A stretch of DNA of 40,000 nucleotides from Marvania coccoides. Lineage: Eukaryota > Chlorophyta > Trebouxiophyceae > Chlorellales > Chlorellaceae. Numbering within the stretch: position 1 is the first letter of the stretch; each line of letters opens with the position of its first letter. The notes under the pieces were generated by a model. It worked only from the letters and a program-made list of their open reading frames with translations, had not been told where the DNA came from and searched no databases. Positions 35,988-36,626 of the stretch are shown piece by piece. A program made the translations under genes and the position numbers. Location of the stretch: assembly GCA_963854735.1 (NCBI GenBank), contig OY978111.1, positions 1-40,000 on the forward strand. The letters run 5' to 3'.

Positions 35988-36626
35988 ATGACCATTTCAT
36001 CGAAAACCCTTTTTGATTGCTCTGAAAATTCTCGATATTTGATTTCAATTGAAGGAAATATTGGAAGTGGAAAAACCACACTCTTACAAAGTTTAAATCA
36101 AATTTATCCATATCCAATTTTTTTCGAACCAGTAAATGAATGGAAATTTCTTGATGAATACTATACGGACCAAAAAAAGTATTCATTTGTATTTCAACTC
36201 GAAGTTTTATTTAGTTTTCAGCCATCACATAAACAAAAAGGTTTGTCTTTTTCAGAACGATCAACCGCATCAGGGTTTTTAGTATTTGCCACACTCCTTC
36301 GAGATGAGGAAATTTTAAATCTAAGAGAATTCGCTCAACTCGAATTAATTTGGCAACGTTATAATATTTTTCCTGACTTAGTGGTCTATGTTGATACACA
36401 GCCAAGTGAGTGTTTACAACGAATTCAAATACGGAATCGACCATGTGAAAACACTATTGATTTAGCTTATTTAACAAAATTAGACCTTTATCATAAAAAA
36501 TTTCTTCAATTTTTAGCAAAGCGTGGAATTAAAATTTTAACAATCGATGGAACGCAATCTAAAGCTCAAATTTTAGACGAATTCCAACAAAAATTATCAG
36601 AGCTTTACCTTTTTACAAATACATAA
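35988..36626 (+). CDS. Deoxynucleoside kinase-like protein (dNK family)
   Basis: 212 aa. The dNK family (dCK, dGK, TK2, insect dNK, bacterial dAK/dGK) phosphorylates deoxynucleosides to monophosphates for dNTP salvage. Seen here: P-loop GNIGSGKTT at 23-31 preceded by IEG; EPVNEW at 47-52 (catalytic Glu region); a Gln in FQLEV (70) where dNKs contact the base; ERS at 90-92; LID-type RIQIRNRPCEN at 145-155; then a YLTKLDLYHKKFL helix. Length is typical of the family. ATG 35988 is chosen; the open extension back to 35856 (44 codons) is repeat-like. No Shine-Dalgarno sequence. Base composition resembles the neighbouring genes. I do not know it as a standard plastid gene, so transfer is likely. 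Substrate preference cannot be told from sequence. Confidence 0.88.
   Translation: MTISSKTLFDCSENSRYLISIEGNIGSGKTTLLQSLNQIYPYPIFFEPVNEWKFLDEYYTDQKKYSFVFQLEVLFSFQPSHKQKGLSFSERSTASGFLVFATLLRDEEILNLREFAQLELIWQRYNIFPDLVVYVDTQPSECLQRIQIRNRPCENTIDLAYLTKLDLYHKKFLQFLAKRGIKILTIDGTQSKAQILDEFQQKLSELYLFTNT

Follow-up and report, generated by a model that had tools for sequence, protein, structure and literature searches.

A deoxynucleoside kinase gene in the plastid genome

The plastid genome of the green alga Marvania coccoides encodes a deoxynucleoside kinase (dNK) of 212 amino acids. The gene lies in the window, by which we mean the whole stretch of 40,000 nucleotides that we analysed. This stretch makes up the first 40 kb of contig C15 (99,873 bp), which belongs to an assembly of 22.46 Mb (22,462,713 bases) in 15 contigs. 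The dNK frame is open for 212 codons and then closes with TAA (Table 1). Upstream it is free of stops back to an ATG at 35856, which would yield 256 amino acids, and hence the start at 35988 is unproven. The first residue of the closest homolog (P0001) aligns with the start at 35988, and we do not favour the longer form.

The open reading frame (ORF) is a genuine member of the non-TK1 kinase family (dCK/dGK/TK2/dNK). A preliminary description of this DNA had listed the dNK motifs in order within an intact frame of 212 residues, and this is what we find: GNIGSGKTT at residues 23–31, EPVNEW at 47–52, ERS at 90–92 and RNR..E at 149–154, followed by YL...YHKKFL. The Pfam dNK profile (PF01712) matches with an E value of 6.1e-40 and 137.6 bits (cut-off 27), and the predicted structure has the dNK fold. 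The residues of the P-loop, the catalytic Glu, the ERS motif, and the arginines and Glu of the LID are all present (G23, G28, K29, E47, E90-R91-S92, R149, R151 and E154). Among 352 candidate database proteins, 73 are homologs at E ≤ 1e-3, the top two being 91% (P0001) and 66% (P0002) identical.

The best matches do not come from a different P-loop family, a possibility that the preliminary description had considered. Pfam Thymidylate_kin scores 31.9 (cut-off 27) and PHROG 761 ('thymidylate kinase') 76.9, both far below dNK. The dTMP kinase model TIGR00041 reaches 41.4 bits and stays below its equivalog cut-off of 83.25. TK1 (PF00265) is not among the four Pfam families that match at E ≤ 0.001.

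The plastid location of the locus is supported because contig C15 holds many standard green-algal plastid genes, including rbcL, psaA, psaB, rpoB, rpoC1, rpoC2, chlB, chlL, chlN, tufA, clpP and minD. Gene names on this contig were assigned by eye, except for four proteins that were run against Pfam (one of the four is without a family). The immediate neighbours of the dNK gene are rpl32, trnN(GUU) and psaC. The dNK gene itself is outside the standard plastid gene set, as had been suspected.

Table 1. Coordinates of the dNK gene and of nearby features in the window
Feature	Position	Strand	Basis or remark
Plastid-encoded dNK, 212 aa	35988..36626, stop included	+	open frame, Pfam, homologs
Possible 44-codon N-terminal extension	35856..35987	+	in-frame upstream ATG, 256 aa total; not favoured
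Pfam dNK profile match	36042..36557	+	residues 19-190, profile positions 1-182 of 203
rpl32, upstream neighbour	35101..35252	-	named by eye; 3' boundary approximate
trnN(GUU), downstream neighbour	36861..36934	+	tRNA prediction
psaC, downstream neighbour	37088..37333	+	named by eye
Inverted repeat upstream of dNK	35762..35856		21 nt, 90% complementary, 53-nt spacer

The dNK gene is written in the codon usage of the plastid. Its codon adaptation to plastid genes is 0.709; the 29 plastid genes that form the reference (bounds read by eye) span 0.609–0.777, and ten of them lie above dNK. When the gene is recoded synonymously at random, 500 times for each of three GC values, no version reaches the adaptation of dNK. 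GC content at the three codon positions (0.42/0.31/0.19) is that of plastid genes. Compared with P0001, 19 of the 212 residues differ, none of them at the 17 functional columns checked. For the dNK sequence we expect 0.12 nonsense changes per missense change. If the gene were neutral, 2.3 stops would be predicted for the 19 changes, with a probability of 0.10 that none occurs. For the approximately 70 changes (rounded) that separate it from P0002, the prediction would be 8.3 stops, with a probability of 0.0002 that none occurs. The stop count is weak evidence, because the proteins in databases derive from frames that are intact to begin with. Overall, the dNK gene is real and intact, lies in the plastid and is probably functional.

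No second dNK was found in the readable assembly. The query, the Pfam dNK profile, P0003 and the animal TK2-like P0096 each match only the locus on contig C15. The search was made exon by exon, with N-masked stretches unseen. On contig C15 itself, bases 40001–48000 read N and fall outside this search and the self-comparison (91,873 bases are readable). In the nucleus we find one TK1-type gene (PF00265), seen as two adjacent matches on contig C8 (L004 1216–1713 and L003), and one thymidylate kinase locus, on contig C13.

Placement in the dNK family

Our tree has 100 rows. Besides the query it contains 56 whole database proteins, five pieces of three double-length proteins, and 38 loci drawn from the 119 of the viral and bacterial scans, in which some contigs are represented twice; a 39th locus was left out because its frame had been misread. 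A careful tree keeps 70 of these rows; the other 30 were removed for long branches, for unusual composition or because they nearly duplicated another row. The query and P0001–P0004 form one clade (99/94). P0002 shares with the query an amino-acid composition of the AT-rich kind, which P0003 and P0004 lack. P0002–P0004 may mark a dNK gene in further algal organelles.

Approximately unbiased (AU) tests, for groups chosen after the tree was seen, disfavour joining the plastid clade with nine Bacteroidota-type rows (p-AU 0.007) or with eight Dependentiae-type rows (p-AU 0.002), and they reject a join with the animal rows (p-AU 0.009). Joining the plastid clade with the toursvirus enzyme and P0098 is not rejected (p 0.31). 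Among viral structures the Megaviridae environmental dNK A0A5J6VJR8 matches best (36% identity across 214 columns). Of 50,697 phage records, 30 match; the top-ranked one covers 89% of the query with 27.6% identity, and the 20 phage matches listed reach at most 31.1% identity, over shorter stretches.

We did not find the donor itself among viral contigs. Scanning them with the plastid dNK gave 11 loci, the best with 39% identity. With P0076, one of the next neighbours in the tree, as the reference the scan gave 28 viral loci, the best with 34% over a long match and, in one, 51% over residues 4–58. A search for viral insertions with the capsid family PF04451 had no match, and its control also had none, so that the search is uninformative. 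The preliminary description had left bacteria, a phage and a large DNA virus side by side as donors. Of these, the bacterial clades that were sampled are disfavoured by the tree, which leans to the large-DNA-virus neighbourhood. The leading reading, though unproven, is a donor close to large DNA viruses and their dNKs.

Substrate pocket and proposed role

In an alignment, E52, W57, Y70, Q81, R105, R169 and E172 of Drosophila dNK correspond to E47, W52, Y59, Q70, R91, R151 and E154 of the plastid dNK. The Drosophila residues serve as base, as stacking residue, and as sugar, base and 5'-OH contacts (excerpt of PMC11357392). The hydrophobic cavity V84/M88/A110 of the Drosophila enzyme, which marks the pyrimidine pocket of the TK2/Drosophila-dNK type, corresponds to V73/F77/G96, where Val is exact and Phe and Gly are similar in kind but not identical. 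The Arg and Asp that dCK-, dGK- and dAK-type enzymes carry at Drosophila positions 88 and 110 are not in the plastid dNK (F77, G96). This Arg/Asp pair (columns 77 and 96) occurs in 59 of the 100 tree rows, among them 14/14 Bacteroidota-type and 6/9 Dependentiae-type rows. It is found in 0/5 rows of the plastid clade, 0/15 neighbours (in one of them the Arg occurs without the Asp) and 0/5 animal rows. When the cavity of Drosophila dNK is mutated to S/R/D, preference shifts to deoxyguanosine (excerpt of PMC11357392). Because the pair is absent from the plastid clade and this change yields a deoxyguanosine preference, the plastid dNK is predicted to be a pyrimidine, thymidine-leaning kinase.

From these data we propose the following role. 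The Marvania lineage would have acquired the gene in its plastid genome by horizontal transfer, probably from a source beyond the plant lineage, and would then have retained it. The enzyme would be made inside the plastid, where it would most likely phosphorylate pyrimidine deoxynucleosides at the 5'-OH with the gamma-phosphate of ATP, preferably thymidine and after it deoxycytidine. Deoxynucleosides would thereby be reused for plastid DNA synthesis and repair, and the enzyme would help to supply deoxynucleoside triphosphates (dNTPs). The link to plastid DNA supply is suggested by analogy: maize TK1 is an organellar enzyme that plastid genome replication requires (excerpt of PMC7463494). We regard it as reasonably probable that a functional non-TK1 dNK is made in the plastid, was horizontally acquired in the Marvania lineage and is kept for pyrimidine salvage for plastid DNA. 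A narrower version is possible and is put forward tentatively. In it the plastid would have gained a thymidine-type salvage kinase whose donor was a large DNA virus or something closely related to one, would have kept it under selection and would now make part of its own DNA-precursor supply, rather than relying on imported nuclear enzymes alone.

Several observations weigh against this proposal. The candidate promoters are consensus matches (11 versus 5.2 ± 2.2 in shuffles, both strands, 35253–36900), and no terminator-like site was found. In the pocket, F77 and G96 resemble M88 and A110 in kind and not in identity. A nuclear dNK gene with very short exons, or one in an N-masked stretch, could escape the sole-copy search. 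The nuclear TK1 may serve the organelle because its N-terminus is, by eye, Arg/Ser/Ala-rich with few acidic residues, perhaps an organelle transit peptide; the plastid dNK may be redundant with such an enzyme. In the tree, the next neighbours are P0076 and P0082, two unnamed metagenomic proteins with a sister-group support of 91/85, not starred. The sole named row in the wider neighbourhood is the toursvirus enzyme, and most others are unnamed metagenomic proteins. Finally, phmmer ranks a deoxyadenosine kinase of Giardia nearest among solved sequences, which makes a purine substrate possible.

A functional dNK that acts mainly on a purine deoxynucleoside (deoxyadenosine or deoxyguanosine), as in the deoxyadenosine kinases of Giardia and Mycoplasma, is nevertheless unlikely, given that the Arg/Asp pair common in the tree overall is missing from the whole plastid clade. 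Direct transfer of a bacterial or phage gene, from outside the large-DNA-virus neighbourhood, has a somewhat better standing, and we still judge it the less plausible origin. Bacterial dNKs are abundant (at least 574 confirmed among 591 stretches, of which the best 80 were used), an unsampled bacterial donor is conceivable, and the unnamed metagenomic proteins that make up most of the clade of the plastid dNK may be bacterial. Against such a donor stand the disfavoured Bacteroidota-type and Dependentiae-type joins and the low identity of the phage matches listed.

The preliminary description had offered a local dNTP supply, a foreign origin and a mere remnant of transfer. The evidence fits the first two. 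The third, in which a captured foreign ORF stays unexpressed and decays without function, is improbable. Foreign ORFs are known in trebouxiophyte plastids (PMC4524492 Table 2), and in Auxenochlorella reverse-transcription PCR of virus-like plastid sequences yielded no product (excerpt of PMC8955559). However, the frame is full-length, the catalytic residues are present and the codon usage is plastid-like, not foreign. At the divergence of P0002 about eight stops would be expected under neutrality, although for P0001 alone a lack of stops is less telling. An assembly artefact, with a contaminant or viral dNK joined into the plastid contig, is barely credible: the separately sequenced sister species Marvania geminata has a plastid dNK ORF, the codon usage is plastid-like, and the published assembly was made from PacBio reads with a consensus quality of 66.5 (excerpt of PMC11833223).

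The proposed salvage role would have consequences for how plastid DNA supply can be studied. In plastid genomes gene loss is far commoner than the gain of metabolic enzymes. To our knowledge, plastids are generally taken to rely on nuclear-encoded, imported enzymes for dNTPs. A plastid-encoded salvage kinase would be a natural case of an organelle able to influence its own dNTP pool, in an alga with a small genome. It would allow organelle dNTP supply as a limit on plastid DNA copy number to be tested directly, and it opens a way to label plastid DNA with thymidine analogues. The finding is mildly surprising, real but not new in kind.

The plastid contig and known systems

The published assembly of M. 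coccoides CCAP 251/1B comprises 13 chromosomes, a mitochondrion of 49.04 kb and a plastid of 99.87 kb (excerpt of PMC11833223). There is no large inverted repeat in the readable bases of contig C15, where the longest inverted match is 104 bp. This match (87.5%) joins 22926–23028 and 65043–65145 of the contig. Two identical 72-bp copies of trnG(gcc) lie in inverted orientation at window positions 19759–19830 (-) and contig positions 64786–64857 (+). A duplicated trnG(gcc) is also described for M. geminata, where a lost large inverted repeat has been suggested (excerpt of PMC4524492). The trnG(gcc) pair and the 104-bp repeat are possibly remnants of such a loss.

Pieces of the intergenic stretch around 35762–35856 are repeated at several other plastid sites and form a dispersed repeat family. 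In an ftsH-like gene (window 4227–8251, -) a stop separates ORFs of 961 and 376 aa. The second ORF matches Peptidase_M41 with 46.4 bits. The protease centre appears to be lost, because neither ORF has the HExxH zinc motif. At window 4137–4217 (+) ARAGORN predicts a tRNA whose anticodon is irregular, with two bases (ca); it is perhaps a misread trnL(caa).

Several known systems resemble the plastid dNK. Drosophila melanogaster dNK and animal TK2 are approximately 30% identical to it; they are nuclear genes, and after the EPVxxW motif, before the next helix, they have a short insertion that the plastid dNK lacks. The dNKs of large DNA viruses include the structural match A0A5J6VJR8 and, in the same broad clade, the enzyme of Dasineura jujubifolia toursvirus (P0143). 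These are viral genes, and their kinship to the plastid dNK is weakly supported. Plant TK1b and maize TK1 (CPTK1) phosphorylate thymidine in plastids for plastid DNA (excerpt of PMC7463494). In contrast to the plastid dNK, they belong to family PF00265, are nuclear-encoded and are imported.

The closest precedent is orf242 in the chloroplast DNA of M. geminata (KM462888; Turmel et al. 2015), positions 8571–7843, listed as 'Deoxyribonucleoside kinase (cd01673)' (PMC4524492 Table 2). We found no further treatment of orf242 in the open-licence literature; 'deoxyribonucleoside' occurs once in PMC4524492, the available excerpt of which holds no analysis of origin, pocket or function. The word 'kinase' is absent from the available excerpt of the Koliella bifissiva plastid paper. 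None of the 73 database homologs has 242 residues, and such records may be lacking in the protein database. Like the M. coccoides dNK, orf242 is a freestanding plastid ORF, in the same genus; it has 242 residues versus 212, and the likeness is drawn from the table entry alone. The protein search and family tree proposed earlier bear out the dNK family, for a kind of gene that was already on record, and M. coccoides is very probably the second species with it. To that listing we add the sole-copy result, the codon usage, the predicted pocket and a position in the tree apart from the bacterial and animal groups that were sampled.
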